A stretch of 23,182 nt of DNA from IMG/VR virus record IMGVR_UViG_3300047557_001211, positions 1 through 23,182 of that record. The stretch is one strand, 5' to 3'. The stretch's first letter is position 1, and each line of letters begins with the position of its first letter. The notes below the pieces were generated by a model, which made no database searches, had not been told where the DNA came from, and saw only the letters and a list, made by a program, of their open reading frames with translations. Positions 9,998-21,280 of the stretch are shown one piece after another. The DNA comes from a virus. The position numbers and the translations under genes are program-made.

Positions 9998-10029
9998 TTT
10001 ACGGCAATTGTAAAAAATGCCCTAAAAGT
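9998..10029 (+). repeat. 32-bp TTTACGAC element, copy A
   Basis: TTTACGGC, then AAAAAATGCCCTAAAAGT in the conserved phase. A GTGGGGGCC sequence lies 10-20 bases upstream, as in copy B. Confidence 0.75.
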
Positions 10030-10147
10030 CTGTCAAGTTTTAGATCGGCGTGTCGCAAACTATTTTTGTGATGTTGGTCTCATCAAAATGACTAATAAAA
10101 AAATATTTCGCAAATTGTCCGATTTATACGCATTTATAATTAGGTAA

Positions 10148-10169
10148 TGTCGGGGATGTGTGTTATACT
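10148..10169 (+). promoter_or_regulatory. TGTCGG-N10-TATACT promoter module 3
   Basis: TGTCGG 10148-10153 and TATACT 10164-10169, followed by CTCACCATAACGAAAGGA, the standard leader, before the ATG at 10194. Confidence 0.75.
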
Positions 10170-10193
10170 CTCACCATAACGAAAGGACAACTG

Positions 10194-10340
10194 ATGAATT
10201 ATCAACAACTGAAAGAGGCTCAAGATAAGCAACGAGCCAAAGAAATGGAAAGAATCAACACTCTCCTAGAGGCTTCATTCGCTAACCGTAAGCCTCGCCC
10301 TCTCAATGATGAATACGAATTAGGGCAGTTAGACCGATAG
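10194..10340 (+). CDS. Hypothetical 48-aa helical protein
   Basis: The start has AACGAAAGGACAACTG directly upstream; a longer frame from 10158 would begin inside the promoter. The product is charged and helical (NYQQLKEAQDKQRAKEMERINTLLEASF) with a short C-terminal tail NRKPRPLNDEYELGQLDR. It may be a coiled-coil partner protein. Function unknown. The next promoter module starts at the base after its stop. Confidence 0.7.
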   Translation: MNYQQLKEAQDKQRAKEMERINTLLEASFANRKPRPLNDEYELGQLDR

Positions 10341-10362
10341 TGTCGGTGGCTTGCTATATAAT
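10341..10362 (+). promoter_or_regulatory. TGTCGG-N10-TATAAT promoter module 4, long leader
   Basis: TGTCGG 10341-10346 and TATAAT 10357-10362. Unlike the other modules, about 85 bases separate it from the next start. This leader holds GGAGATGTTCT (10393-) pairing roughly with AGAATCTCC (to 10431), followed by CAACGAAAGG. Confidence 0.65.
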
Positions 10363-10451
10363 AACTGAATAACGGAAACAGAGGCAGTTTCGGAGATGTT
10401 CTCGCCTAATGTCCTAAGTAAGAATCTCCACCAACGAAAGGAAAAACTGAA

Positions 10452-10661
10452 ATGAAAACCTATACCGTAGAGAGTCTCCTAATTGGAAAGACTTATCAAC
10501 CTGAATCCACCGCCCGAAAAGATAGGGGTGGCGTAATCACTCACGCCGAGAAGCGTAGAAATGTCTGGTCTGGCAGAGAAGCGGAAGCCTATGCGATTCG
10601 CTTCACGAATCCCGACGGCTGGGATTCATGGGCTACCGTTGTCGTATCACTAGCCGATTAG
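10452..10661 (+). CDS. Hypothetical early protein, 69 aa
   Basis: The start follows CCAACGAAAGGAAAAACTGAA. The product MKTYTVESLLIGKTYQPE... carries RGGVITHAEKRRNVWSGREAEAYAIRFTNPDGWDSWATVVVSLAD. The GxTYQP and AIRFTNPDGWDSWATV pieces suggest a compact beta-rich domain. I do not recognise a family. Its end runs into promoter module 5. Confidence 0.75.
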   Translation: MKTYTVESLLIGKTYQPESTARKDRGGVITHAEKRRNVWSGREAEAYAIRFTNPDGWDSWATVVVSLAD

Positions 10662-10666
10662 GCTAG

Positions 10667-10688
10667 TGTCTGACCCTAATGCTATAAT
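10667..10688 (+). promoter_or_regulatory. TGTCTG-N10-TATAAT promoter module 5
   Basis: TGTCTG 10667-10672, TATAAT 10683-10688, then CTGACCCATAACGAAAGGAAAA. TCTGACCC is directly repeated on both sides of the -10. Confidence 0.7.
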
Positions 10689-10716
10689 CTGACCCATAAC
10701 GAAAGGAAAACTGAAA

Positions 10717-10860
10717 ATGAAAAACCTACTAATTTCATACATCGCCGATGTTGATAATGAGCAACAGGCACAGGCTCACCTGAACGCCTTGCTCTACATT
10801 CTTCCCGAACACTACAGAGATAAGTTTCTTCTTATTGATGTGTTAGAAGTGGAGATCTGA
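10717..10860 (+). CDS. Hypothetical 47-aa protein
   Basis: The start is set by AACGAAAGGAAAACTGAAA. The product MKNLLISYIADVDNEQQAQAHLNALLYILPEHYRDKFLLIDVLEVEI has a beta-alpha-beta pattern. Not recognised. It ends four bases before the ATG of the next small frame. Confidence 0.65.
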   Translation: MKNLLISYIADVDNEQQAQAHLNALLYILPEHYRDKFLLIDVLEVEI

Positions 10861-10863
10861 AAA

Positions 10864-10977
10864 ATGAATCTTGACCAATTCCGCCAATATGTCACCGAAC
10901 AACGCAAAGCGAGTCTCGCCGAAGCGTTGTCGGTGCTCACCGCTACAATGTCCGAAACACAACGAAAGGAAAACTAA
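10864..10977 (+). CDS. 37-aa frame that encloses a complete promoter module
   Basis: The frame begins ATG 4 bases after the previous stop with GGAG 10 bases upstream, and reads MNLDQFRQYVTEQRKASLAEALSVLTATMS... ending ETQRKEN. Its second half is the TGTCGG-N10-TACAAT module and the AACGAAAGGAAAACTAATG leader of the next gene, so those residues encode the control signals. The product could be a real helical microprotein with overlapping function, or a chance open frame. Confidence 0.5.
   Translation: MNLDQFRQYVTEQRKASLAEALSVLTATMSETQRKEN
10928..10949 (+). promoter_or_regulatory. TGTCGG-N10-TACAAT promoter module 6, inside a reading frame
   Basis: TGTCGG 10928-10933 and TACAAT 10944-10949, then AACGAAAGGAAAACTA before the ATG at 10977. 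Lies within the 37-aa frame. Confidence 0.65.
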
Positions 10978-11120
10978 TGGAGATGATTCAGACACTTTCA
11001 TATTCATGCGATACATGTAACGGAAAGGGTTATGTGTATTGGCGCAACCGCCACGAATATGATGTAGAAAAATGCGAATGCCGAGACGGCGACCTATTCA
11101 CGAACGGAGAAAACGACTAA
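10977..11120 (+). CDS. 47-aa DnaJ-type zinc-finger-like protein
   Basis: The start overlaps the previous stop (TAATG) and has AACGAAAGGAAAA upstream. SCDTCNGKGYVYW matches the CxxCxGxG repeat of DnaJ cysteine-rich domains, and KCECRDGDLF supplies the second cysteine pair. One zinc site is likely. Such single-repeat proteins are common in phages, with unknown partners. It overlaps the next gene by TAATG. Confidence 0.75.
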   Translation: MEMIQTLSYSCDTCNGKGYVYWRNRHEYDVEKCECRDGDLFTNGEND

Positions 11121-11311
11121 TGATGACGAGAAAAGACTATGTAGAGACGGCGAAGATTCTCAACTACATGAGCGACAAGATTCACCCTTCGCTATTCTCT
11201 AAAACTGTAAATGATTTCGCTCAAATGTTTGCGAAAGATAATCCGCGCTTTGATGTAAAGCGATTTCACGAAGCGAGTAATTATCGTGTTCCGCAACTTA
11301 GAACGAATTAG
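11120..11311 (+). CDS. Small phage protein of the NPRFD...RF type
   Basis: The 63-aa product begins MMTRKDYVETAKILNYMSDKI and ends with FAQMFAKDNPRFDVKRFHEASNY. This arrangement (MTRKDYxxxAxxL ... FAxxFAxDNPRFDxxRFxxA) is a widespread hypothetical protein of actinobacteriophages, recognised from memory. Its role is unknown. The start overlaps the preceding stop; a longer frame from 11072 lies wholly in the zinc-finger gene and is rejected. Confidence 0.82.
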   Translation: MMTRKDYVETAKILNYMSDKIHPSLFSKTVNDFAQMFAKDNPRFDVKRFHEASNYRVPQLRTN

Positions 11312-11418
11312 AAAAGTTATGGAAATCCGTCGCAGTAATGCGGCGGGTTTCGTAAAATCCAAAAAACAATATTCACGCAAGCGAAAACATAAAAATAAAA
11401 TTGACGAATAGCTGAAAA

Positions 11419-11447
11419 GCCCGCAAGAGCTGTGGGGGCCTTTTTTT
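11419..11447 (+). terminator. Probable terminator before repeat copy B
   Basis: GCCCGCA and TGTGGGGGC form an imperfect GC-rich hairpin (11419-11439) directly followed by seven T. The GCTGTGGGGGCC part is also present before copy A. Confidence 0.6.
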
Positions 11448-11448
11448 A

Positions 11449-11480
11449 TTTACGACACGCCGAAAAAATCCCGTAAAATT
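11449..11480 (+). repeat. 32-bp TTTACGAC element, copy B
   Basis: TTTACGAC with AAAAAATCCCGTAAAATT in phase. CGACACGCCG (11453-11462) is the exact inverse of CGGCGTGTCG found in the other boundary regions. Promoter module 7 follows 7 bases later. Confidence 0.8.
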
Positions 11481-11487
11481 TCGGGGA

Positions 11488-11509
11488 TGTCGGAGGCTTC
11501 TGCTATACT
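11488..11509 (+). promoter_or_regulatory. TGTCGG-N10-TATACT promoter module 7
   Basis: TGTCGG 11488-11493 and TATACT 11504-11509, then CTCGCCATAGCC and the leader AAATGAAAGGAAAACTA. Confidence 0.75.
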
Positions 11510-11538
11510 CTCGCCATAGCCAAATGAAAGGAAAACTA

Positions 11539-11691
11539 ATGATTTGCCAAATGTGTGAATATGACGAAAATGTAAGTCTGTCTATCAACACCGACACGCT
11601 ATGCGATACGCATTATTTCCAATGGGCGGATGAAAAATTAGCCTATGAATATGATATTGTTCGCAACTTTGATATGGATGTGTACGCATGA
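11539..11691 (+). CDS. 50-aa acidic protein with CxxC, partner of GP88
   Basis: The start has TGAAAGGAAAACTA upstream. MICQMCEYDENVSL has a CxxC pair, and LCDTHYFQWADEK a further Cys and His, so a zinc site of the C-x2-C...C-x2-H type is likely. The last codons overlap the GP88 start (ATGA), so the two are translated together and may act together. Confidence 0.72.
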   Translation: MICQMCEYDENVSLSINTDTLCDTHYFQWADEKLAYEYDIVRNFDMDVYA

Positions 11692-12407
11692 AACTAAAAC
11701 GCTCAAAAGATAGAAAGGTAACTAATGCTGTCTCGCCTAATGGAAAAACTCCAACAATCGCAAATACTTTTGGACTTCCTGCTGGTAAGTCTTTCAGTTG
11801 CCCTGGTGCTACTAGTATCTGTGAAAGTGTCTGCTATGCTGGCAAATTAGAAAAGATCTATAAAGGTGTTAGAGATGTTCTAATTCATAACTGGGATCTT
11901 CTACGCAATGAAGACCGAATGGGCATGTATTCTCTACTTTCCGACATGATTGCCGATTTCAAGGCCGATTGTGTCAAGCGCAATGCCGAGATGTTATTTC
12001 GTATCCACTGGGACGGCGATTTCTTCTCCGATGAATACGCACACGCATGGCGTCTAGTTATTGAAGAGCAACCCGATGTTAGATTCTGGGTGTATACACG
12101 TGTCCCCTCTGCTGTCGCTATCTTGAAAGATATTCCTAACCTGTCTTTATATTTCTCTACCGACGACGAGAATCGGGAGGTAGCGAAAGATCTACGCAAT
12201 GAACACGGTACACGTCTCGCATATTTGGGAAAGACATTCGCCGTAACCGAATCAGTCATGAAAGAATTGACTGGCAAGGTAGGCGCTAAGTGCCCTGAAA
12301 ATAATAAATCCATTCCGCTTATTTCTAGCAATGGGTCCGCATGCGTGTCATGTGGTCTCTGTGTATTTGGAAAAGCGGATATTAGATTCTCTGCGAGTAA
12401 AAAATAA
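11688..12407 (+). CDS. GP88-like phage protein with two cysteine clusters
   Basis: The 239-aa protein matches the GP88 family first described in mycobacteriophages (recognised from memory). Residues 25-50 carry NTFGLPAGKSFSCPGATSIC..VCYAG with C38, C45 and C49. The centre has RIHWDGDFFSDEYAHAW (105-121) and VRFWVYTRVP (131-140). The C-terminus has C202, C219, C222 and C225 (SACVSCGLCVFG), arranged like an iron-sulfur site. The alternating strand/helix pattern with an N-terminal cysteine triplet suggests a TIM-barrel metalloenzyme; activity is not known to me. The gene is coupled to the 50-aa CxxC gene upstream and overlaps a membrane microprotein downstream by TAATG. Confidence 0.85.
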   Translation: MKLKRSKDRKVTNAVSPNGKTPTIANTFGLPAGKSFSCPGATSICESVCYAGKLEKIYKGVRDVLIHNWDLLRNEDRMGMYSLLSDMIADFKADCVKRNAEMLFRIHWDGDFFSDEYAHAWRLVIEEQPDVRFWVYTRVPSAVAILKDIPNLSLYFSTDDENREVAKDLRNEHGTRLAYLGKTFAVTESVMKELTGKVGAKCPENNKSIPLISSNGSACVSCGLCVFGKADIRFSASKK

Positions 12408-12505
12408 TGGCAAATACTCTGGGACAAATATTTGGCGGGATCTTATTTCTAGTAATGTTCTCGCCACTGTTTCTTGCAATCTATTTCTTGACAAAAATGA
12501 AATAG
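12407..12505 (+). CDS. 32-aa single-pass membrane microprotein
   Basis: The ATG overlaps the GP88 stop (TAATG). The peptide MANTLGQIFGGILFLVMFSPLFLAIYFLTKMK is one hydrophobic helix with a basic end, so it should sit in the membrane with the C-terminus inside. The gene's stop is part of the terminator stem that follows. Function unknown. Confidence 0.65.
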   Translation: MANTLGQIFGGILFLVMFSPLFLAIYFLTKMK

Positions 12506-12538
12506 GCCCCGCAGGCCCGCAATTAATGCGGGGGCCCC
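12505..12538 (+). terminator. GC-rich hairpin after the GP88 operon
   Basis: GGCCCCGCA (12505-12513) can pair with TGCGGGGGCC (12527-12536), and CCCGCA (12516-12521) competes for TGCGGG. There is no U-run, so termination may be weak or factor-dependent. Confidence 0.5.
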
Positions 12539-12544
12539 GTGTGA

Positions 12545-12576
12545 TTTACGACACATCTGAAAAATGCCCTGAAATT
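12545..12576 (+). repeat. 32-bp TTTACGAC element, copy C
   Basis: TTTACGAC with GAAAAATGCCCTGAAATT in phase. CGGCGTGTCGC follows at 12579-12589, then promoter module 8. Confidence 0.8.
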
Positions 12577-12596
12577 CTCGGCGTGTCGCAGGGCAT

Positions 12597-12618
12597 TGTC
12601 GGAGGGCTATGCTAGACT
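12597..12618 (+). promoter_or_regulatory. TGTCGG-N10-TAGACT promoter module 8
   Basis: TGTCGG 12597-12602 and TAGACT 12613-12618, followed by AACAACAACGAAAGGAAAG before the ATG at 12646. Confidence 0.7.
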
Positions 12619-12645
12619 ACGGCTAACAACAACGAAAGGAAAGAA

Positions 12646-12849
12646 ATGCTAATCCCACACTCGCTTCAGTTTGTAACTGAAATTGATGACTTTCATCCAA
12701 ATGCCACTATGATTCAGAATATGCCTGAACAATATCGTCAGATTATGTTTGAGCAAATGCTAGTAGACCTTGTTGCTCCAAGGCTCCAGGATATCTTAGA
12801 TGAACTCAACGCAGGTAATTCATGGGCTACTCTAAGGGTGGCAGACTAA
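12646..12849 (+). CDS. Hypothetical 67-aa helical protein
   Basis: The start follows ACGAAAGGAAAGAA. The product MLIPHSLQFVTEIDDFHPNATM continues with MPEQYRQIMFEQMLVDLVAPRLQDILDEL, a mostly helical, acidic sequence. Not recognised. TAATG links it to the next gene. Confidence 0.75.
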   Translation: MLIPHSLQFVTEIDDFHPNATMIQNMPEQYRQIMFEQMLVDLVAPRLQDILDELNAGNSWATLRVAD

Positions 12850-13136
12850 TGTTAGCCACCGCCCTGAAAATATTAGAAGCAACTAATGAGACTATCCATT
12901 CACAGGATATCATGGGCTTGGCGGGAGAATTACACTCCCGCCGAAATGAGCTTGATGACGAAACATTCGCCAAATTCTTATATATGTATTCGGCGGCTAT
13001 ATCGTCAAAGGTAGCGGATAAGGTTGCTCTTGCGTGTCTTGGAGAAAACGACTATAATCTGATGACCGATGTAGTAATGGAAATGGATGACCTGACCGAC
13101 GATGTATTGAGAGAGGATAGAGAAAATGGGAAGTAA
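12849..13136 (+). CDS. Hypothetical 95-aa helical protein
   Basis: The start overlaps the preceding stop (TAATG); a frame from 12822 overlaps the upstream gene and has no ribosome site. The protein is all-helical with many acidic residues (LATALKILEATNETIHSQDIMGLAGELHSRRNELDDETFAKFLYMYSAAISS...). The pattern of two helical pairs resembles small phage proteins annotated as hypothetical. It overlaps the next gene by 11 bases. Confidence 0.75.
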   Translation: MLATALKILEATNETIHSQDIMGLAGELHSRRNELDDETFAKFLYMYSAAISSKVADKVALACLGENDYNLMTDVVMEMDDLTDDVLREDRENGK

Positions 13137-13413
13137 TCTTGCTTATGACTTGGCTAATGATGAATTAGGCTTAGACTTGGAAACCGCTATTGGATGGCAC
13201 TTACAGGGGAATCATTACCCGCCCGTCCCGCTATCAATGGTAGAACCTTGCATTCAGGCTATTGAGGCATATTGGGATATGGATATAGATCGTGAAATCC
13301 CAATGCCTGAAGGTGTTACCTATAGAGGTCAAAACACTTCACCCGCATGGGCTATCATAGAACAGCATCACCTAGATGCTTGGTGTGAGGAAAGTTACAC
13401 AGACGAAGAATAG
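13126..13413 (+). CDS. Hypothetical 95-aa protein of common actinophage type
   Basis: The product begins MGSNLAYDLANDELGLDLETAIGWHLQGNHYPPVPLSMVEPCIQAIEAY and ends with WCEESYTDEE. The YPPVPxSMVExxxxAIxAYxxxDxDxxIxMPEGVxYRG segment recurs in actinobacteriophage genomes near replication or early genes (from memory). The start lies within the previous gene's last codons. Function unknown. Confidence 0.8.
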   Translation: MGSNLAYDLANDELGLDLETAIGWHLQGNHYPPVPLSMVEPCIQAIEAYWDMDIDREIPMPEGVTYRGQNTSPAWAIIEQHHLDAWCEESYTDEE

Positions 13414-13417
13414 GCAT

Positions 13418-13439
13418 TGTCGGTGGGCTAGTGTATAAT
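13418..13439 (+). promoter_or_regulatory. TGTCGG-N10-TATAAT promoter module 9 with perfect flanking inverted repeat
   Basis: TGTCGG 13418-13423 and TATAAT 13434-13439. GGGCTAG before and CTAGCCC after the -10 form a perfect 7-bp inverted repeat around it. Leader AACAGAAAGGAAA. Confidence 0.8.
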
Positions 13440-13470
13440 CTAGCCCATCACACAACAGAAAGGAAATGGC

Positions 13471-13629
13471 GTGAGCAACAAAAAAATAATCAATCTTATG
13501 AATGAATATGGCTATGAGTTAGATAATGACGGGCAGGTAGTTATCTACACAGGCTTGTATGAGCATAATGATGGCAAACTATATTCTGAACCCGAAGAAT
13601 ATGAAGATGATGAGGAAGATGAGGACTAA
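13471..13629 (+). CDS. 52-aa acidic protein, GTG start
   Basis: GTG at 13471 is preceded by CAGAAAGGAAATGGC; the ATG three bases earlier would stop at once. The product (V)SNKKIINLMNEYGYELDNDGQVVIYTGLYEHNDGK ends in a run of Glu/Asp. The DNDGQVVIYTGLY strand resembles DGDEGEIVILTGSVL in the next gene, so the two may be diverged duplicates. Function unknown. Confidence 0.72.
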   Translation: MSNKKIINLMNEYGYELDNDGQVVIYTGLYEHNDGKLYSEPEEYEDDEEDED

Positions 13630-13764
13630 ATGACCTTTGATGAGATGGTGGCTCAGGTGTTACCTATATTCCCTGATGCCCTATTCCATGATGGCGATGA
13701 AGGTGAGATCGTGATTCTCACAGGCTCCGTTCTAAGAAATAACAAACTAGAGCCAATAAACTAA
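13630..13764 (+). CDS. 44-aa protein, possible paralogue of its upstream neighbour
   Basis: ATG directly follows the preceding TAA (TAAATG). Product MTFDEMVAQVLPIFPDALFHDGDEGEIVILTGSVLRNNKLEPIN. A helix followed by the HDGDEGEIVILTG hairpin matches the layout of the upstream 52-aa protein. Its stop is directly followed by the TGTCGG of the next module. Confidence 0.68.
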   Translation: MTFDEMVAQVLPIFPDALFHDGDEGEIVILTGSVLRNNKLEPIN

Positions 13765-13786
13765 TGTCGGTGGGGGCATGTATAAT
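13765..13786 (+). promoter_or_regulatory. TGTCGG-N10-TATAAT promoter module 10
   Basis: TGTCGG 13765-13770, TATAAT 13781-13786. GGGGCA and TGTCCCC flank the -10 as a near inverted repeat. Leader AACAGAAAGGAAAC. Confidence 0.78.
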
Positions 13787-13816
13787 GTCCCCATCACCTA
13801 ACAGAAAGGAAACAAA

Positions 13817-13963
13817 ATGCTAGAGGTTGGACAAACCTTCACAACTACAAAGAGTGGGGTAGTTGGTATTATCAAGGCTATTGATAATCACCCATCAGGC
13901 ACGAATCGTATTCTGCTTGATGTAAATGGGACAGAGCGTTGGACTAGCGTATCCGTCCGATAA
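13817..13963 (+). CDS. 48-aa small beta-barrel-like protein
   Basis: The start follows CAGAAAGGAAACAAA. The product MLEVGQTFTTTKSGVVGIIKAIDNH...NRILLDVNGTERWTSVSVR has the strand pattern of a five-stranded SH3-like barrel and a G-GVVG-I hinge typical of short phage nucleic-acid-associated proteins. No family assignment. It ends eight bases before a strong hairpin. Confidence 0.72.
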   Translation: MLEVGQTFTTTKSGVVGIIKAIDNHPSGTNRILLDVNGTERWTSVSVR

Positions 13964-13971
13964 TCCCCAAA

Positions 13972-13994
13972 GGCGCACCGCTTGTCGGTGCGCC
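13972..13994 (+). terminator. 9-bp perfect hairpin overlapping a TGTCGG site
   Basis: GGCGCACCG (13972-13980) and CGGTGCGCC (13986-13994) with loop CTTGT. It follows a stop codon at 13963 and contains the TGTCGG of module 11, so it may act as a terminator, an operator, or both. There is no U-run. Confidence 0.6.
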
Positions 13995-14004
13995 CTGCTA
14001 TAAT
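13983..14004 (+). promoter_or_regulatory. TGTCGG-N10-TATAAT promoter module 11
   Basis: TGTCGG 13983-13988, TATAAT 13999-14004, then AACTAACGAAAGGGAAATA before the ATG at 14032. Confidence 0.78.
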
Positions 14005-14031
14005 CTGCTAACAACTAACGAAAGGGAAATA

Positions 14032-14460
14032 ATGAGTAACCGCAGAGGCAAGGCTATCAATGTGAAGATAGCAACAAGCAAGGTAATCAAGGCTCTTGAG
14101 ACTAAACACGCAGAACTCAAGAAGCAACAGAAGGAACAGGCTACCAAAGAGAAAGCCTATGAGAAGGCAGTTGCTGACCGCCAGAAGAAAATCATTGAGT
14201 TGGCTACCGCTAAAATCTCTAAGGCAGAAAACTTCAGAGTATCTGAGCGTGGGTGGAATAACATGGTGAACATTGACTTTGATATTCCAAAGGCATTGAT
14301 TAGCCTACCTGATGAGGTAAAGCGTGACCATGTTATCTGGCATGAGCACCAATACACGGAAGCCTTTGAGGAACTTGAGAACGCTATTCGTATTCTCAAG
14401 ATGACCGATGAGGAAGTTGTATCAACCTCAACATATCAGGCAGTTGCTAGATACCTCTAG
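14032..14460 (+). CDS. Hypothetical coiled-coil protein, 142 aa
   Basis: The start is fixed by ACGAAAGGGAAATA. Residues about 14-60 are a Lys/Glu/Ala-rich coiled coil (ETKHAELKKQQKEQATKEKAYEKAVADRQKKIIELA). A C-terminal part with VSERGWNNMVNIDFDIPKALISLPDEVKRDH and a second helix (TEAFEELENAIRILKM) follows. It may form a scaffold or inhibit a host protein; no family is recognised. It is a single-gene unit with its own promoter module and a strong terminator. Confidence 0.8.
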   Translation: MSNRRGKAINVKIATSKVIKALETKHAELKKQQKEQATKEKAYEKAVADRQKKIIELATAKISKAENFRVSERGWNNMVNIDFDIPKALISLPDEVKRDHVIWHEHQYTEAFEELENAIRILKMTDEEVVSTSTYQAVARYL

Positions 14461-14466
14461 CAAATC

Positions 14467-14491
14467 AGGGGGGCTTGACGAAAGCCCCCCT
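14467..14491 (+). terminator. Strong hairpin terminator
   Basis: AGGGGGGCTT (14467-14476) and AAGCCCCCCT (14482-14491) form a 10-bp stem with a 5-base loop. The tail is CTAATAAT, so the U-run is weak. Confidence 0.7.
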
Positions 14492-14664
14492 CTAATAATA
14501 TAATAATAGAAATGGCTATCGCCCCTCTCACCTGAGCATGTGAAAGGAATAGATAAACTACTCAAAGTCTATAAGGGGTATGACTATAAATAAGACCTCG
14601 CTTCGTCCTAAGCATGACGGCGGAAAAAACTGCTTATCCTTATCCCTACTAACAAAGGAAAGAA

Positions 14665-14910
14665 ATGCGAAACCGATTTCGTATTGAGATCTTTGACGAA
14701 ATCAAAGATAATGATTTGACTATCTATTCAGATCAAGGTGTAGACCGAGATCATCTAGTTGAAATCATGTTCAGTAATGCCCGCCGATTTCAAGGCAATG
14801 TAAAAGCATTCGTCTATGATTCGCTGAAGAAAAAGAAAACAGCGGCGGCTAGGCTTTCAATGGAAACAATCTCAAACATAAATAAACATAAGTTGACACG
14901 GGTCCTCTAG
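14665..14910 (+). CDS. Hypothetical basic protein, 81 aa
   Basis: The start follows AACAAAGGAAAGAA. No TGTCGG module is seen upstream, and the 170 bases before it hold only very short frames (such as MTINKTSLRPK... from 14580) that I cannot support. The product MRNRFRIEIFDEIKDNDLTIYSDQGVDRDHLVEIMFSNARRFQGN has a beta-rich start with a helix, then KAFVYDSLKKKKTAAARL. A beta-alpha protein with a basic tail suggests nucleic acid contact. Not recognised. Confidence 0.75.
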   Translation: MRNRFRIEIFDEIKDNDLTIYSDQGVDRDHLVEIMFSNARRFQGNVKAFVYDSLKKKKTAAARLSMETISNINKHKLTRVL

Positions 14911-14935
14911 GGCCCGCATTAAGCTGCGGGGTTTT
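14911..14935 (+). terminator. Rho-independent terminator
   Basis: CCCGCA (14913-14918) and TGCGGG (14925-14930) with loop TTAAGC, followed by GTTTT. It follows the stop codon at 14910 directly. Confidence 0.65.
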
Positions 14936-14962
14936 CCACAGGTTTACGACGGCCTGTGGAAA
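14933..14962 (+). repeat. Inverted repeat TTTCCACAGG / CCTGTGGAAA with TTTACGAC in the loop
   Basis: A perfect 10-bp inverted repeat (14933-14942 and 14953-14962) with a 10-base loop that is the start of element copy D. A related hairpin is at 21051-21081. Confidence 0.8.
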
Positions 14963-14974
14963 TCTCCCAAAACC
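14943..14974 (+). repeat. 32-bp TTTACGAC element, copy D (diverged)
   Basis: TTTACGAC is intact. The second block reads GGAAATCTCCCAAAACC, the weakest match of the nine, because the stem CCTGTGGAAA overlaps it. Confidence 0.6.
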
Positions 14975-14987
14975 TAGATTAGGGACA

Positions 14988-15009
14988 TGTCGGAGGGGTG
15001 TGCTATAAT
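14988..15009 (+). promoter_or_regulatory. TGTCGG-N10-TATAAT promoter module 12
   Basis: TGTCGG 14988-14993, TATAAT 15004-15009. GGTG and CACC flank the -10. Leader AACTAGAAAGGAAAAA. Confidence 0.8.
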
Positions 15010-15040
15010 CTCACCATCAACTAAACTAGAAAGGAAAAAA

Positions 15041-16051: not shown

Positions 16052-16056
16052 CAACT

Positions 16057-16076: not shown

Positions 16077-16081
16077 CCACT

Positions 16082-16156
16082 GGTCCCTTGGCTTAGCCTG
16101 GTAAAAGCGCCACCTTGTCACGGTGGAGATCACGAGTTCAAATCTCGTAGGGATCG
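16082..16156 (+). tRNA. tRNA-Asp (anticodon GTC)
   Basis: Acceptor GGTCCCT / AGGGATC, anticodon stem CCACC / GGTGG with loop TTGTCAC, T arm ACGAG-TTCAAAT-CTCGT. Reads GAC and GAU. No encoded CCA. It stands alone, on the opposite strand from the main tRNA cluster, and has no obvious promoter of its own. Confidence 0.92.
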
Positions 16157-16189
16157 CAAGCCCGCAGGAGCTAAGAGCTAATTAAGCGC

Positions 16190-16221
16190 TTTACGACATT
16201 TATAAAAAACCCCCTAGAAAT
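16190..16221 (+). repeat. 32-bp TTTACGAC element, copy E
   Basis: TTTACGAC with AAAAAACCCCCTAGAAAT in phase. GCCCGCAGGAGCT upstream is like GCCCGCAAGAGCT before copy B. Confidence 0.75.
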
Positions 16222-16231
16222 CCTTGACCCA

Positions 16232-16253
16232 TGTCGGACCCCTGGTGTATACT
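16232..16253 (+). promoter_or_regulatory. TGTCGG-N10-TATACT promoter module 13, leaderless geometry
   Basis: TGTCGG 16232-16237 and TATACT 16248-16253, with TTGACC (16224-16229) 18 bases upstream. The ATG of the next gene is 7 bases after the -10, so the mRNA would be leaderless. Confidence 0.72.
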
Positions 16254-16260
16254 CTGGCCC

Positions 16261-16893
16261 ATGACAAACGAAATATATACATTTGTATGTGAGCCTAATG
16301 AATGCGATGCATTAGTTGAATTTATTCCATCCGACGGGTTTGGTTTCCCTAACGGTGAAGTAAAAATGACATGTGCATGTGGTAGACAGATGAACTGGAT
16401 ATCTGCTAGAATCAGCCCAACAAACGAAAAGGAGAAAGAAATGCAAGACACACGATATGACGTCAATGCAACAATGCTTGTACGTACAACCGATTATACA
16501 ACTGGGGTAACAACGGATGTCCCAGTAACCCCTCTTGATGTAGAGACCATGCAACGCAAGATAAACAATCTTGAAACAAGGCTTACTTATCATGAGAAGA
16601 TGATTACTCAAATCAAAGAGAATCTAACTTATGCTGGTTGGTATATGTCATCTGTAGATAAGGAAGATGTGCTTGCTGATTTGTGTTCTATTATTGGACA
16701 CGAGCCAATCGCAGTCCTTCGCTTCTCTGCTAATATTACGGTTGAGGGCAGTGTTGAAGTTCCTCTATCTGAGGCAGAAGACTATGATTTGAGATATGAT
16801 TTGCAGGATGACCTTACTGTAGAATCTAATAACTTCAATCTAGGAATCAACTCATATTATGTTGAAGATATCGTGAATCAGGAGTGGGAATAA
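16261..16893 (+). CDS. Zinc-ribbon plus C-terminal domain protein with a possible internal start
   Basis: The ATG at 16261 lies 7 bases after a -10, so a leaderless start is likely; the frame from 16231 begins in the promoter. The product is 210 aa. Residues about 9-50 have FVCEPNECDAL and MTCACGRQ, giving a C4 zinc ribbon. Then ACGAAAAGGAGAAAGAA and an in-frame ATG at 16441 give a second start for a 150-aa form (MQDTRYDVNATMLVRTTDY...) with a helix at about 95-120 (METMQRKINNLETRLTYHEKMITQIKEN). The gene could therefore make a long zinc form and a short form. Function unknown. It overlaps the next gene by TAATG. Confidence 0.75.
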   Translation: MTNEIYTFVCEPNECDALVEFIPSDGFGFPNGEVKMTCACGRQMNWISARISPTNEKEKEMQDTRYDVNATMLVRTTDYTTGVTTDVPVTPLDVETMQRKINNLETRLTYHEKMITQIKENLTYAGWYMSSVDKEDVLADLCSIIGHEPIAVLRFSANITVEGSVEVPLSEAEDYDLRYDLQDDLTVESNNFNLGINSYYVEDIVNQEWE

Positions 16894-17132
16894 TGTACTA
16901 CCAACTCCGTGCTAATACTAAGCGTTCCTTTGACTCCGCCTTCTTTGAGGCGGAGTTGATTGGACTAGACCCTGAATATCTAAATGATTTTATATTTGAA
17001 ATCGCCACAGGCAATATTGAAAAGGTTACAGCCTTGATTTCAAAGCATAAGTTAGATATACTTGAGGAATCAGATTTTGGATACAATCAGTATTCTAACA
17101 AGTATGAAGGGAGCGGAAGTGTCCGAATATAA
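16893..17132 (+). CDS. Hypothetical 79-aa protein
   Basis: The start overlaps the preceding stop (TAATG) with GGAG upstream. Product MYYQLRANTKRSFDSAFFEAELIGLDPEYLNDFIFEIATGNIEKVTALISKHKLDILEES. Two helices after a beta strand. Not recognised. It is followed by a closely packed run of small genes. Confidence 0.72.
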   Translation: MYYQLRANTKRSFDSAFFEAELIGLDPEYLNDFIFEIATGNIEKVTALISKHKLDILEESDFGYNQYSNKYEGSGSVRI

Positions 17133-17277
17133 GGAAGGCTTTGAGGATGGTGTTACCTTTACTCGTGAGGTTATTATCAATAACCTCCGCCAATGGGCGG
17201 AAACCCACGAGGACGGAGAAACATTAGACTGGGTAGCAGACCAAATAGAGTTTGGGAAACTAGATAATGATGTCTGA
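17119..17277 (+). CDS. 52-aa acidic protein, GTG start
   Basis: GTG at 17119 is preferred: GGGAG lies 5 bases upstream. An in-frame ATG at 17104 has no ribosome site. The product (V)SEYKEGFEDGVTFTREVIINNLRQWAETHEDGETLDWVADQIEFGKLDNDV matches a pattern common in actinobacteriophages, a short SExxxGxxDGxxFxRE head followed by a helical acidic tail. Function unknown. It overlaps both neighbours. Confidence 0.72.
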   Translation: MSEYKEGFEDGVTFTREVIINNLRQWAETHEDGETLDWVADQIEFGKLDNDV

Positions 17278-17467
17278 TTTAGAATGGATCAAATGTGATT
17301 CCTGTTCGGCTCAGGCTTTATTTATAGCCCGCTCAACTAATGGTGAACTATACTTTTGTGGCCACCACAAAAATAAGTTCTCCGCAGGCCTTGACAAGTG
17401 GGCCTATGAAATTATAGAATGTAATAAGACAGAAGAAGTTCCCCAACTACAAACGGAAGAGGTATAA
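17267..17467 (+). CDS. CDSC...CGHH zinc protein (DUF7455-like)
   Basis: The 66-aa product has KCDSCSAQALFIARSTNGELYFCGHHKNKF. The C-x2-C ... C-G-H-H layout with GELYFCGHH is that of a small zinc protein found in many actinobacteria and their phages (DUF7455 as I recall). It probably binds one zinc ion; the partner is unknown. It overlaps the previous gene by 11 bases, and its stop is one base before the next ATG. Confidence 0.82.
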   Translation: MMSDLEWIKCDSCSAQALFIARSTNGELYFCGHHKNKFSAGLDKWAYEIIECNKTEEVPQLQTEEV

Positions 17468-17468
17468 A

Positions 17469-17867
17469 ATGGGAGACAGAGCAAACTTTGTATTTGTACA
17501 GGATAGCGGTGAGACCATTGTCCTATACGGCCACTGGGCTGGATACAACATGTTAGAGAAGTTGGCGGATGCAGTAGCCAAGGCACAGCCACGGTGGTCC
17601 GACTCAGGCTATGCAACACGTATCGCAGTCAGTCAGATGATCAACGAATTCTGGGACAGCGGAACTGGCTGGGGACTGTATGTCAACGAAATTACAGATA
17701 ACGAGCACAGAATTCCAGTTGTAAATTGGAAAGATAGAACGTTCAGTCTACACCAAGAGGACCGTTCGCCAGGCAATAAAGTCAGAGGAATGAGCAATAA
17801 CGCTATCTTCACGATGGACCTCTCAGCATTCGTGGAGAAATACAGCGACGCCAAGATTTTGGTATAA
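17469..17867 (+). CDS. MGDRANF-family hypothetical phage protein
   Basis: The 132-aa product begins MGDRANFVFVQDSGETIVLYGHWAGYNMLEKLADAV, a very characteristic opening found in many actinobacteriophage proteins. The middle is beta-rich (TGWGLYVNEITDNEHRIPVV) and the end is FTMDLSAFVEKYSDAKILV. Role unknown to me. The ATG lies one base after the preceding stop. Its last codons overlap a TGGTATAAT extended -10 at 17860-17868. Confidence 0.85.
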   Translation: MGDRANFVFVQDSGETIVLYGHWAGYNMLEKLADAVAKAQPRWSDSGYATRIAVSQMINEFWDSGTGWGLYVNEITDNEHRIPVVNWKDRTFSLHQEDRSPGNKVRGMSNNAIFTMDLSAFVEKYSDAKILV

Positions 17868-17868
17868 T
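17860..17868 (+). promoter_or_regulatory. Extended -10 promoter inside the end of the MGDRANF gene
   Basis: TGGTATAAT is a perfect extended -10 (TGnTATAAT). No good -35 is seen. Transcription would start near 17875. Confidence 0.55.
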
Positions 17869-17874
17869 AGATCT

Positions 17875-18010
17875 TGGTCCTCTGACCGTTCAAACAGGGT
17901 GCGGCTATTAGGTTAGTCACCGAGTCGCTAAGTAATGCAGCGTTTACTTATTTCCTTTCGTTTGGCTAGCAGCCCTGATTATAAAGGCCCCGCCCCAGCG
18001 GGGTCTTTTT
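17875..18010 (+). ncRNA. Putative small RNA with anti-leader sequence
   Basis: Between the extended -10 and a terminator lies a gene-free stretch. TTATTTCCTTTCGTT (17948-17962) is the exact complement of AACGAAAGGAAATAA, and thus of the core of most ribosome-binding leaders in this window. A transcript of about 135 nt could pair with many of them. The alternative is a minus-strand copy of a promoter-leader module: TATAAT (17983-17978) lies 15 bases before AACGAAAGG on that strand, within the range seen elsewhere, but it has no TGTCGG box and no start codon at the right distance. Confidence 0.4.
17986..18010 (+). terminator. Rho-independent terminator
   Basis: GGCCCCGC (17986-17993) and GCGGGGTC (17999-18006 region) form a GC-rich stem followed by TCTTTTTC. 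It is one of the best terminators of the window. Confidence 0.8.
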
Positions 18011-18045
18011 CATTTGCCCACAACAGCTAAGGGACAAATCTTTGT

Positions 18046-18077
18046 TTTACGACATGATCTAAAAATGCCCTAAAAAT
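18046..18077 (+). repeat. 32-bp TTTACGAC element, copy F
   Basis: TTTACGAC with CTAAAAATGCCCTAAAAAT in phase, nearly identical to copy A in the second block. Confidence 0.8.
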
Positions 18078-18100
18078 GTGAGGCATGTCATATAGACCAA

Positions 18101-18122
18101 TGTCAGGGGGGTGTTATATAAT
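18101..18122 (+). promoter_or_regulatory. TGTCAG-N10-TATAAT promoter module 14
   Basis: TGTCAG 18101-18106, TATAAT 18117-18122, with TAGACC 18 bases before the -10. Leader CAACGAAAGGAATAAT precedes the ATG at 18147. Confidence 0.75.
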
Positions 18123-18146
18123 GGGGGAAACAACGAAAGGAATAAT

Positions 18147-18869
18147 ATGCCTAATTGGGTATTCAATACTGTAACAATTCAAGGTCCAAAGGACGAAATA
18201 GATTATATCAAAGATAAACTAAATGCACCATTTACTCGTGAACACGAGAATTGGAGTACTGAGAAGCAAGCAATGGTTACTGAGACTTATACGTATTCTA
18301 ATCCTGTATTTGCTTTCTGGAATATCATTCGTCCCACCGACCTTGTTGAATATGCTAAACAACCTAAACATGATTTTGAGAAGGGTAATGATTGGTATTC
18401 ATTCAATAGCCGTGAATGGGGTACTAAATGGGATGTAGCCGTAGGCGACGAAGGACTACATGATTCTACTGAATTGGTAGATTATATTTCTAATGGTAAG
18501 GATAACTGGTTAGTATATAGATTTGATACTGCTTGGTCTCCACCTGTTTCTGCCCTTCAAAAACTATCTCTGAAAGTTCCTACATCTGTAATTACTCTTG
18601 AATGGCAAGAGGAGCAGGGCTTCGGTGGTGAGATGGAATTTCTCAGGGGTAAACTAATCTCAGAATCAAGTTATGATTCTAGATGCATGGACTGTGATGC
18701 ATATGACACCATGGAGTATTGTGAGGAAAATGACTGTGGCAACATATGTTCATCTTGTAACTATTTGGGCGAGGCAGACCTTGAATGTGTAGAGGAATGT
18801 CAGACCCATAAGATATACTTGAATGAGAAGCATGTCCCTGATTATAGAATGGAGAAGACAAATGGATAG
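18147..18869 (+). CDS. Api92-like / DUF1281-type protein with C-terminal cysteine cluster
   Basis: The start follows ACGAAAGGAATAAT. The product has 240 aa. The start MPNWVFNTVTIQGPKDEIDYIKDKL is the signature of the Api92-like family (MPNWxxNxVxxxG), a ferredoxin-like fold found on plasmids and phages. REWGTKWDVAV (about 88-98) and the LVYRFDTAWSPPVSALQKLS segment are also typical of it. The last 55 residues add a cysteine-rich tail (RCMDCDAYDTMEYCEENDCGNICSSCNYLGEADLECVEEC) with ten cysteines that may bind two or more metal ions. Function unknown. It overlaps the next gene by 8 bases. Confidence 0.85.
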   Translation: MPNWVFNTVTIQGPKDEIDYIKDKLNAPFTREHENWSTEKQAMVTETYTYSNPVFAFWNIIRPTDLVEYAKQPKHDFEKGNDWYSFNSREWGTKWDVAVGDEGLHDSTELVDYISNGKDNWLVYRFDTAWSPPVSALQKLSLKVPTSVITLEWQEEQGFGGEMEFLRGKLISESSYDSRCMDCDAYDTMEYCEENDCGNICSSCNYLGEADLECVEECQTHKIYLNEKHVPDYRMEKTNG

Positions 18870-19086
18870 TTTCCTAACTACCCTCCCAGAAGAACAAGTT
18901 GTAGATATGTATGAAGCAATATCAGTAACACTGCTTGACCAATGGGTGGATACAAATCTAGACGAAGGTCAAATGTGGCATGACTATCAAGTTATATCTA
19001 TGTCTGATAGTCCTGAGTTTTATGAGGCATTCAATAAGTATTATCACCTGAATCCAGGCGATGATTTATATTTGGGGGAATCATGA
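18862..19086 (+). CDS. Hypothetical 74-aa acidic protein
   Basis: The ATG at 18862 has GGAGAAG upstream and overlaps the previous gene by 8 bases. Product MDSFLTTLPEEQVVDMYEAISVTLLDQWVDTNLDEGQMWHDYQVIS... ends LNPGDDLYLGES. Helical and acidic, unrecognised. ATGA overlap with the next gene. Confidence 0.75.
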   Translation: MDSFLTTLPEEQVVDMYEAISVTLLDQWVDTNLDEGQMWHDYQVISMSDSPEFYEAFNKYYHLNPGDDLYLGES

Positions 19087-19313
19087 CAGATTCATTTATT
19101 GAATATGCCAAACTACATATACTTAGTTTGGAACAAGATCTAGAGAATATAAAAGAAGAAATGGGACAGTCAGAAGAAGGCTCTCCTGATTTCTTTAGTC
19201 TTGACTATGAGTATAATCACATTGCTGGACAGTTACTTACTGCCCGTCATTTATTGACGGTTTATGGGGACCTGTTATATAATGGAAATCTACGAAAGGA
19301 ATATAATGGCTAG
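19083..19313 (+). CDS. Hypothetical helical protein enclosing the next gene's promoter
   Basis: The 76-aa product MTDSFIEYAKLHILSLEQDLENIKEEMGQSEEGS has two helices typical of a coiled-coil hairpin, the second reading YNHIAGQLLTARHLLTVYGDL. Its last 20 codons contain TTGACG-N18-TATAAT and the ACGAAAGGAATATA leader of the next gene. The ATG overlaps the previous stop (ATGA). Function unknown. Confidence 0.75.
   Translation: MTDSFIEYAKLHILSLEQDLENIKEEMGQSEEGSPDFFSLDYEYNHIAGQLLTARHLLTVYGDLLYNGNLRKEYNG
19254..19283 (+). promoter_or_regulatory. Canonical promoter within a coding sequence
   Basis: TTGACG (19254-19259), 18 bases, TATAAT (19278-19283), then CTACGAAAGGAATATA and the ATG at 19306. 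Unlike the 14 modules it has no TGTCGG at -28. Confidence 0.7.
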
Positions 19314-19476
19314 GCACGTAATCAAGTACACATCAGAATCATGGCGACATGTAGAGGTTGAAGGCGACACTCCAGAGGAGGCCCTACGCAATTTCCGTAA
19401 TGAGGAGAATGTCTATTGGGAGACTGACTCTGAGTTTGACGTATTTGTGGACTATGAGCATGCGGAGGTTGAGTAA
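19306..19476 (+). CDS. Hypothetical 56-aa protein
   Basis: The start follows ACGAAAGGAATATA; a frame from 19264 lies upstream of the ribosome site. Product MARHVIKYTSESWRHVEVEGDTPEEALRNFRNEENVYWETDSEFDVFVDYEHAEVE is a beta-alpha-beta unit of the VEGDTPEEALxxF type, often seen as a small phage hypothetical protein. TAATG overlap with the next gene. Confidence 0.75.
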   Translation: MARHVIKYTSESWRHVEVEGDTPEEALRNFRNEENVYWETDSEFDVFVDYEHAEVE

Positions 19477-19832
19477 TGCAAGACATTGACCTACAAGATA
19501 TGGCACGACGGGACTCAGAATTTATCGCTATGGAAAAGGTTATTGATAGCCTTAGAGAGTTAGATTTATTCCCGTCACTAACATGGGTATATGTATGGGA
19601 TATCATTCGTGAAAAGTATGAATCTTATTCAGGAGACCCAGAAGATTGGCAGGATGTAATAGTGCCTGCTGGTATTACCCTAAAAGATATTTGGGACAAG
19701 TTGTTTGAAACAGCAGACGACAATGAGTTTACTCTAGAATATGGTTTGGAAACATTGCACGAGCATGTGGAAGACTGGATGAGAAATCATGATTTCCTTA
19801 CCGTGCTAGACGAAGATGGGTGGTTAGAATAA
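19476..19832 (+). CDS. Hypothetical 118-aa acidic protein
   Basis: Start overlaps the previous stop. Product MQDIDLQDMARRDSEFIAMEKVIDSLRELDLFPSLTWVYVWDIIREKYESYSGDPEDWQDVIVPAGITLKDIWDKLFETADDNEFTLEYGLETLHEHVEDWM... is helical with many Asp, Glu and Trp residues. The arrangement DIWDKLFE...FTLEYGLETLHEHVEDWM recurs in actinophage proteins of unknown role. TAATG overlap with the following gene. Confidence 0.78.
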   Translation: MQDIDLQDMARRDSEFIAMEKVIDSLRELDLFPSLTWVYVWDIIREKYESYSGDPEDWQDVIVPAGITLKDIWDKLFETADDNEFTLEYGLETLHEHVEDWMRNHDFLTVLDEDGWLE

Positions 19833-20107
19833 TGCTAGTAACTGATGAACTGGAGCCCCGCATTCAAAGGCTGGTTGACGCTGGCCTTAGCGGGACCGAC
19901 ATTCTCCACGGAGAGCTCAAAAATATGATGTACGAGGCCGAACAAGAATATCTACAACTGGAGGAGAATGCGGACTCAGATGAGGAGTATGAGGATACGG
20001 TGCGGCGGCTAATGTTGGAGGGTTATCTAAATGCATTAGTCAGCATATATGCTCTTACATATAATCTAAGTTTTGCTATCCAAGAAAGGGCGGCAGCACG
20101 TGGCTAA
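19832..20107 (+). CDS. Hypothetical 91-aa helical protein
   Basis: The start is taken at the TAATG overlap. Product MLVTDELEPRIQRLVDAGLSGTDILHGELKNMMYEAEQEYLQLEENADSDEEYEDTVRRLMLEGYLNALVSIYALTYNLSFAIQERAAARG. Amphipathic helices with an acidic middle. It overlaps the next gene by 8 bases. Confidence 0.75.
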   Translation: MLVTDELEPRIQRLVDAGLSGTDILHGELKNMMYEAEQEYLQLEENADSDEEYEDTVRRLMLEGYLNALVSIYALTYNLSFAIQERAAARG

Positions 20108-20297
20108 ATTCAGAGTCTATGGATCTAAAGAAATCAAGTATTACATGGATGTGGAGGCGGAAGACATGATGGCTGCTGTAAAAGCAGCAGATAAGTCTGA
20201 TTCACATCTATGGATTCAAATGGAGGACGACGATACAATTGACCCATTTGATGTAGTAGATAACGAAGAGTATGTGGATTTGTCTACAAATCTCTAA
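20100..20297 (+). CDS. Small alpha/beta protein, GTG start
   Basis: GTG at 20100 has AAAGGGCGG upstream; an ATG is not available. Product (V)AKFRVYGSKEIKYYMDVEAEDMMAAVKAADKSDSHLWIQMEDDDTIDPFDVVDNEEYVDLSTNL. The MAKFRVY... EVEAEDEEEA pattern is a common small phage fold (beta strand, helix, strands). Unknown role. Confidence 0.72.
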   Translation: MAKFRVYGSKEIKYYMDVEAEDMMAAVKAADKSDSHLWIQMEDDDTIDPFDVVDNEEYVDLSTNL

Positions 20298-20342
20298 ATA
20301 AATATAACTAAATAGATATGGGCTTAGGGGCCCAAAAATAGC

Positions 20343-20374
20343 TTTACGAGGGGTATTTACAAATTCCTGGAAAT
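20343..20374 (+). repeat. 32-bp TTTACGAC element, copy G (diverged)
   Basis: TTTACGAG with ACAAATTCCTGGAAAT in phase; the second block differs because a GGGTATTT / AAATACCC inverted repeat occupies it. GGGGCCC lies 13 bases upstream. Confidence 0.6.
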
Positions 20375-20384
20375 ACCCTATAAT
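20351..20384 (+). promoter_or_regulatory. Promoter with operator-like inverted repeat for the Lsr2-like gene
   Basis: TTTACA (20356-20361), 17 bases, TATAAT (20379-20384). A perfect 8-bp inverted repeat, GGGTATTT (20351-20358) / AAATACCC (20371-20378), covers the -35 and abuts the -10, suggesting a repressor site. Confidence 0.65.
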
Positions 20385-20413
20385 AGAAATAACCGATCTA
20401 GAAAGGATCAAAT

Positions 20414-20563
20414 ATGTCAAACCCGACAACTACACGTGAGTATCTCAAGGCTCAGGGAATTACTGTTGGCCGCCGTGGCCGCTTCTCTGCAGCAGCAAAG
20501 AATGCAATTCAGGAGGCCGTCAAGAAGGGCGTAGTCTTTTCTGATAGCAAGAACGCTAAGTAA
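20414..20563 (+). CDS. Lsr2 C-terminal-like DNA-binding microprotein
   Basis: The 49-aa product starts after AGAAAGGATCAAAT. Residues 8-31, REYLKAQGITVGRRGRFSAA, resemble the C-terminal domain of Lsr2 (REWAxxNGYEVSxRGRIPxxV), where RGR enters the AT-rich minor groove. Here RRGRF lies at 20-24 and a helix with KNAIQEAVKKGV follows. The protein lacks the Lsr2 oligomerisation domain, so it could compete with host Lsr2 or bind AT-rich phage DNA. The basis is sequence resemblance by eye only. A strong promoter with an inverted-repeat operator precedes it and a strong hairpin follows. Confidence 0.7.
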   Translation: MSNPTTTREYLKAQGITVGRRGRFSAAAKNAIQEAVKKGVVFSDSKNAK

Positions 20564-20570
20564 TAACCTT

Positions 20571-20603
20571 GGGGGAGGTTGGGCTACTTGCTCAACTTCC
20601 CCC
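20571..20603 (+). terminator. Strong hairpin after the Lsr2-like gene
   Basis: GGGGGAGGTTG (20571-20581) and CAACTTCCCCC (20593-20603) pair over 11 positions with one wobble. No U-run follows, so termination may rely on other factors. Confidence 0.6.
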
Positions 20604-20642
20604 ACCTATGGTAAGATGTAAGGTCAATGAAAGGCGGAAAGA

Positions 20643-21026
20643 ATGGCACAGTCACCAGAACAGAAGTTAGTCAAGCAAGTAGTAGAGGCACTAGATAATC
20701 ATTGGTTCAATCCAGCATTATTCGCAGATATTATAACTACAGATTATACAGTTTATACTCAGAATAAACTTATTGAACTCATCAAGTGGATTATCCGATT
20801 TGAGCAACGCAGATTCCAATATGAGTGGGATACAGGTATGTCCTCTAATGAACTGCTCCAAGCGGATGCTCTAGCAGATGTCCTCAATGGCATGGAGCCA
20901 GCGATTGATACCCGTAAATTCGTGGATTCATTGCCAGCGGCGGAGAAGAAAGAAGTAGACACCTCTTGGGTCCATAGAACACATCATGGACAAGAAGCAA
21001 GAATAGATACATACGGAATCGTTTGA
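20643..21026 (+). CDS. Hypothetical 127-aa protein
   Basis: The start follows GAAAGGCGGAAAGA. Product MAQSPEQKLVKQVVEALDNHWFNPALFADIITTDYTVYTQNKLIELIKWIIRFEQRRFQYEWDTGMSSNELLQADALADVLN... ends with SWVHRTHHGQEARIDTYGIV. Helical, with FEQRRFQYEWDTG reminiscent of small phage proteins of unknown role. It is the last gene before the gene-free stretch, and a hairpin terminator follows 25 bases downstream. Confidence 0.78.
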   Translation: MAQSPEQKLVKQVVEALDNHWFNPALFADIITTDYTVYTQNKLIELIKWIIRFEQRRFQYEWDTGMSSNELLQADALADVLNGMEPAIDTRKFVDSLPAAEKKEVDTSWVHRTHHGQEARIDTYGIV

Positions 21027-21050
21027 TCTAAACATAAAACAAATATAACA

Positions 21051-21086
21051 TATCCACAGGGTTATCCACATCCTGTGGATATTTTT
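21051..21086 (+). terminator. Terminator hairpin with a DnaA-box sequence in the loop
   Basis: TATCCACAGG (21051-21060) / CCTGTGGATA (21072-21081) form a perfect 10-bp stem, followed by TTTTT. The 11-base loop, GTTATCCACAT, contains TTATCCACA (21062-21070), the consensus bacterial DnaA box. Functions as terminator, DnaA site or both. Confidence 0.7.
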
Positions 21087-21113
21087 ATGTGATCATAAGG
21101 GCCAAGCTGCTGC

Positions 21114-21145
21114 TTTACGAAGAATCAAAAAAAATCGCAGAAATT
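21114..21145 (+). repeat. 32-bp TTTACGAC element, copy H
   Basis: TTTACGAA with AAAAAAAATCGCAGAAATT in phase. GGGCCAAG lies 13 bases upstream. Confidence 0.72.
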
Positions 21146-21248
21146 GTGGCCAATATTAAACATTATCTATTAAAATGTTTACCATATCTGTCAAAATAAC
21201 ATACATTTAATCTAGTTTTATATATGAATTTAAGGGCCAAATTAGCTA

Positions 21249-21280
21249 TTTACGACGACATGTAAAAAATCGCAGAAATT
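21249..21280 (+). repeat. 32-bp TTTACGAC element, copy I
   Basis: TTTACGAC with AAAAAATCGCAGAAATT in phase, sharing the block ATCGCAGAAATT with copy H. GGGCCAAATTAGCTA lies directly upstream. Confidence 0.78.

Follow-up and report, generated by a model that had tools for sequence, protein, structure and literature searches.

What is the function of a short sequence that returns nine times, always in the same orientation, between the early genes of a virus? The window analyzed here, the 23,182-base viral record IMGVR_UViG_3300047557_001211, carries nine such copies (A to I), which an earlier sequence-only reading had described as an ungapped 32-bp intergenic element. The virus is a freshwater actinobacterial phage, with the element copies lying among its early genes. 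The best explanation we find is an asymmetric bipartite operator of the early control region, probably repressive and possibly also used near a replication origin, a reading that we hold at about even confidence.

Inspection of the sequence bore out all nine copies on the plus strand, in register and between genes. Their cores lie at 9998..10029 (A), 11449..11480 (B), 12545..12576 (C), 14943..14974 (D), 16190..16221 (E), 18046..18077 (F), 20343..20374 (G), 21114..21145 (H) and 21249..21280 (I). A strict pattern allowing three mismatches recovers only E, F, G and I, with none expected by chance; it misses the others because the consensus first drawn was slightly off. A two-block weight matrix (TTTACGA, a gap of 7-9 nt, AAAWnCCnGGAAATT) was built from 74 copies, 68 from relatives and six (A-F) from the window, which slightly biases the scores in favor of A-F. 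With this matrix, the nine reported sites and no others take the top places in the window (18.0-31.9 bits; A to I: 27.9, 25.9, 31.9, 18.0, 27.7, 27.5, 21.4, 19.0 and 22.8, respectively), followed by a score of 12.1. Copies G, H and I are absent from the source copies, yet outrank everything else in the window apart from A-F. In the shuffled-sequence control, named beforehand as one of two refuting tests, the best of 30 shuffles reached 16.0 bits, below all nine sites, and the element survives it. Given this maximum and the gap between 18.0 and 12.1 bits, the window holds nine copies and no tenth.

The 32-bp core holds as proposed, but in copies A-F the conserved sequence reaches further, to an upstream arm GCCCGCA...TGnGGGG about 30 nt 5′ of the core, making some 62 nt in total. 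These arms start at 9968 (A), 11419 (B), 12515 (C), 14912 (D), 16160 (E) and 18016 (F). In G, H and I this GCCCGCA arm is missing, with GGGC(C) in its place. The second block is present, albeit closer to AAAWnCCnGGAAATT, a near palindrome, than to the form first given. The consensus of non-redundant copies runs from GCCCGCA through a loop to TGnGGGG, and then, after about 12 nt, TTACG and, after about 14 nt, AAAAnnCCCnGAAATT. As a binding site, the element would be asymmetric and bipartite, its two parts, TTTACGA and a near-palindrome around CCnGG, being separated by about 21 bp (two helical turns). The GC hairpin described upstream of most copies is right for A-D; a terminator scan for a GC hairpin plus T-run called copy B and none of the remaining copies. 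Since the 5′ arm of the hairpin is conserved as sequence, without covariation beyond that, the upstream arm may be more than a terminator.

To what extent is the element shared? A profile built from A-F plus the DUF932 upstream region was run against 80 related viral records with a cut-off of E<=0.01. It gave 425 matches in 80 of the 80 records, every one on the plus (early-gene) strand, compared to zero in reversed DNA; in the window, copies A to G have E-values of 8.6e-6, 3e-8, 3.5e-7, 8.4e-9, 5.7e-7, 0.0018 and 0.0006, respectively. The freshwater clade thus carries an asymmetric, multicopy intergenic site in one orientation relative to transcription. In three long or full contigs every match is confined to one early region of ~10-15 kb, in which a promoter class of the form TGTCRG-N10-TATAMT is concentrated as well. 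The element also withstands the other refuting test named beforehand, being kept at the same boundaries in related phages: G and the H/I pair have fixed places, and most of the relatives inspected have a D-like element ahead of DUF932. Scans with exact patterns gave no match in viral contigs or in host genomes; as these patterns were strict, host sites may exist all the same.

The early promoters form a separate module downstream of the element. In 223 of 316 distinct copies an early promoter follows within 300 nt (30-170 nt to the TGTCRG box), compared to 9 in upstream control windows. In the window, the promoter TGTCGG-N10-TATACT at 11488..11509 on the plus strand follows copy B, and further members of this class lie at 10148, 10341, 10667, 12597, 13418, 13765, 13983, 14988, 16232 and 18101. 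Between 10148 and 18122, as in relatives, the class reads AATGTCRGTGg followed by TATAMT, with 10 nt between TGTCRG and TATAMT, and the loci hold 409 distinct copies, most of them located in the early region on a single strand. TGTCRG itself falls between the places where a -35 and a -10 would usually lie; a MotA-like reading of it had been considered, and the aligned promoters of this class show no conserved -35. Several early promoters of Streptomyces phage EGole look alike (TGTCnn-N10-TAGACT).

Copy G is organized differently, with its second block inside the spacer of a promoter TTTACA-N17-TATAAT (20356..20384, plus strand). Downstream lies a plus-strand gene (20414..20563) for a 49-residue protein that matches the DNA-binding domain of Lsr2 alone (phrog_6269, Lsr2-like, E=3.5e-9; PF23359, E=0.0056, below the cut-off), herein termed mini-Lsr2. 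It is 44-49% identical to Lsr2-like proteins of phages Karimac and Wakanda, and a PDB search with it gave no match. The gene turned up in 50 loci; of 14 diverse examples inspected, nearly all have the second block of G inside its promoter. Mini-Lsr2 is conserved beside the gene-free gap that follows, and might be a competitor of the host Lsr2.

The spacers of the element often hold sequences resembling binding sites of host factors. In a census of 148 non-redundant copies, with calls made from consensus sequences, a DnaA box stands left of TTACG in 35 copies, nearly always starting at -12 (31 starts were counted there), and right of it in 33, at about +8 to +12, a nearly constant place at which both orientations occur; shuffled spacers contain almost none. 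Altogether, TTATCCACA boxes occur at fixed offsets in about a quarter of the non-redundant copies, and the spacer of copy D is an inverted pair of DnaA-box-like sequences, TTTTCCACAGG/CCTGTGGAAA. In addition, TGTG-N8-CACA spans TTACG in 17 of the 148 copies, again with almost none in shuffled spacers, and a Crp-like TGTGA-N6-TCA lies just downstream in 52, against 0.05 in shuffles. At freshwater loci, a Crp-like TGTGA-N6-TCACA is frequent 25-85 nt after TTACG, upstream of early promoters, together with a CGTGTCG/CGACACG motif.

Copies H and I form a pair in the gene-free gap after the last early gene, at a position fixed across relatives. That of H is kept in four relatives and that of I in relatives as well, and an alignment of the gap with four relatives shows their cores as some of its best conserved blocks. 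The two copies had been said to stand without a promoter module; this does not hold for copy I, which precedes a promoter-like TTGACA-N17-TATTAC (21296..21324, plus strand) whose first hexamer is largely kept in relatives, with the GACA core invariant in five aligned sequences. At the end of the gap, three iteron-like 10-bp repeats CTCCACnnTn (21411..21440, plus strand) are kept in four of the five aligned sequences. A hairpin of DnaA-box-like sequences followed by a T-run (21050..21082, plus strand) scored as a terminator, and its DnaA boxes are not kept there in the aligned relatives. Outside the gap, a lone tRNA-Asp (16082-16157) lies between DUF932 and copy E, which directly follows it, and some relatives also have a tRNA directly after DUF932.

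The window shares synteny with EGole, as does a 119.8-kb relative, and the capsid is ~60%, the terminase ~59% and the ribonucleotide reductase ~65% identical to that of EGole; the freshwater group is therefore a lineage related to Stanwilliamsviridae. The core is present in Streptomyces phages of both subfamilies of that family, Boydwoodruffvirinae having it within their terminal repeats and Loccivirinae in a gene-free gap. The terminal repeat of EGole was verified at 11,341 bp and contains the best matches: four near the genome end (674, 639, 427 and 293) and one ahead of the first early gene (10427), each oriented with early transcription. The same cluster occurs in Karimac, Wofford, Tomas, Mildred21 and Bmoc, and across six Boydwoodruffvirinae genomes ~215-240 bp separate the outermost TTTACGA from the end of the genome. 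Among Loccivirinae, the element is carried by Beuffert (28.0 bits) and Wakanda (22.5 bits) in a gene-free gap of ~1 kb, several kb from the terminal repeat, with the genome end ~6 kb away in Wakanda. Region-wise shuffles of the Streptomyces phages gave on average 0.005-0.03 matches of >=14 bits, compared to one or two observed. In Rhodococcus phage Grayson and Microbacterium phage Magritte the matrix scan gave no match that stands out.

Some further features were seen in these phages. Outside the right terminal repeat, ~50-150 bp from where it starts, two to four DnaA boxes lie in EGole (124219-124263), MindFlayer (~118000) and MulchMansion (~122833-122925), adjoined by a conserved GTGTGTAATGG at the cut, and DnaA boxes also occur in the gaps of Wakanda and Beuffert. 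Moreover, many early genes of EGole have ahead of them a hairpin such as GGGCCCTTCGGGGCCC along with a palindrome such as TGTCGGGCCCGGACA.

From the sites, their polarity, conservation and confinement, and the embedded DnaA-like and Crp-like sequences, we infer protein binding and repression. The footprint of a dedicated binding protein, as first suggested, is supported by the near-fixed spacing, the conservation at gene boundaries, the failure of shuffled sequences to match it and the rejection of a -35/-10 reading for eight of the nine copies; the protein could be a repressor, a transcription factor or a replication protein. We propose that the binder is most likely a phage-encoded DNA-binding protein, or else a conserved actinobacterial host protein, which would turn down the early promoters. 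At copies A-F it would act from upstream of the early promoters, whereas at copy G a protein bound in the promoter spacer would exclude RNA polymerase and occlude the core promoter. As the spacers often hold DnaA boxes or Crp-like sites, competition or cooperation of the bound complex with host regulators is probable. All three lineages keep the site at the genome end or in a gene-free gap, where it may therefore also serve, near a presumptive origin. A broader and rather doubtful extension is a family-wide module that pairs a single phage-specific bipartite site with host-factor sites (DnaA, Crp-like) able to replace one another; the replication and nutrient state of the host would then gate both early transcription and the presumptive origin. 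Several observations weigh against the operator. The distance from element to promoter varies widely, and its helical phasing is suggestive rather than specific, as other periods score too. Most early promoters of the Streptomyces phages stand without the element, the Loccivirinae copies lie on the strand opposite to the neighboring genes, such that polarity relative to transcription is not universal, and the DnaA and Crp assignments come from consensus sequences only.

Alternatively, the element could be the site of a replication initiator, the gap with H, I, the promoter and the CTCCAC iterons being the origin, and the early-gene copies being autoregulatory or secondary. The clustering of copies in a gene-free gap across three lineages, in Wakanda even ~6 kb from the genome end, the DnaA boxes of the Streptomyces phages and the conserved iterons adjoining H and I all fit such an origin, but most freshwater copies are located at early promoters and the DnaA boxes of the freshwater gap are not conserved. 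In our scan, no element rises above noise in MiniFlayer, a satellite that is missing key replication genes and relies on a helper from this phage family (PMC10690885). A second satellite, MulchRoom (OQ784832), has one weak match of 18.0 bits, exceeded in 2 of 60 shuffles, inside the terminase gene and its repeat copy (1479, 14657); the similarity of this match to the element of the helper family extends further. Dependent satellites without a convincing element speak against an initiator site, and we regard this account as rather unlikely. A site for packaging, injection or end recognition near the physical terminus would agree with the Boydwoodruffvirinae clusters close to the genome end and with the verified repeat of EGole, yet it appears quite improbable, as the Wakanda and Beuffert clusters are remote from the repeat and the freshwater copies are spread across 11 kb, mostly at early promoters. 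The packaging reading was dropped on account of Loccivirinae, a terminus location being true of Boydwoodruffvirinae and false of Wakanda and Beuffert.

An element acting as RNA, be it a regulated terminator, a 3′ processing hairpin or a structured RNA ending each upstream operon, would explain the hairpin-like arm at A-D and the terminator call at copy B, and the flanks of TTACG pair slightly above shuffled partners (5.5 against 4.8). However, no Rfam family was matched, the upstream stem lacks covariation (4.77 against 4.66 shuffled), and copy G stands upstream of and within a promoter, with no upstream arm in G, H or I. A protein-binding DNA site is favored over an RNA hairpin because the right DnaA box occurs at one place in both orientations, and its flip, though it destroys the pairing, is tolerated. 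A terminator/antiterminator switch, the first impression, was abandoned, as Rfam, folding, mutual information and stem tests show no conserved RNA, and any RNA-level role is improbable. Lsr2 is thought to recognize AT-rich DNA loosely, and a fixed TTTACGA block with a spacing of ~21 bp would be unexpected for such recognition; nucleation sites for Lsr2-type silencing or counter-silencing, bound by mini-Lsr2, are hence an equally improbable account, despite the overlap of copy G with the mini-Lsr2 promoter in relatives and the Lsr2-like genes in early regions or terminal repeats of Streptomyces phages. A core promoter, with TTTACG as -35 and a -10 near the end of the element, had already been doubted, and is rejected for eight of the nine copies. 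Sigma-70 hexamers 16-18 nt apart within the element are good in G only, in a different register, in addition to a weak promoter-like call at 11452 in copy B; no -10 is conserved at a fixed distance, and the early promoters lie downstream. Neither this nor a chance alignment is credible for the whole set, the shuffles falling short of the nine scores.

Returning to the operator, the open-access literature searched held no description of the site, and early-gene control in large actinophages with terminal repeats appears little studied. A site recognizable by sequence across Stanwilliamsviridae and their freshwater relatives would predict where a control protein binds, with the cultured Streptomyces phages as a test bed, and, judging by the embedded DnaA and Crp-like sites, the phage may sense the state of its host. 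Phages of the freshwater lineage look virulent: integrase and resolvase families (PF00589, PF00239) had no match in seven contigs of relatives, and repression of the temperate-phage type was rejected on these grounds. The BE relatives are also described as virulent (PMC10690885).

Comparison with known systems places the element near several of them. Long terminal-repeat early regions, as in T5, SPO1 and cluster BE (PMC5764925), likewise hold small genes, and in BE phages the element lies inside them, but no such cis-element was found described for them in the literature searched. The intergenic repeats of halovirus HF2 (PMC8707807) are similarly tied to virus promoters, although they carry the promoters themselves, whereas here the promoter is a separate downstream module except at copy G. 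Bacterial oriC also clusters DnaA boxes like those in the element copies and near the gap in the Streptomyces relatives; here, by contrast, the boxes are optional and the conserved core is another sequence. Start-associated repeats (SAS/ESAS) are reportedly found in cluster K mycobacteriophages. They too are repeated intergenic elements near gene starts in actinophages, but the present element differs from them in sequence and is located upstream of promoters and in the gap, not tied to start codons. The element also resembles the asymmetric repressor sites known as stoperators (PMC9283540), which in cluster A mycobacteriophages, likewise phages of actinobacteria, occur as many intergenic copies, in one orientation as in the freshwater clade. 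Compared to stoperators, the element is longer, bipartite and confined to the early region and the gap rather than genome-wide; its polarity is opposite in Loccivirinae, and a temperate context is missing in these apparently virulent phages, which have no integrase family in seven contigs and no known repressor. With this resemblance, and with its different context, length and location, the element is best classed as a putative repeated phage regulatory site.

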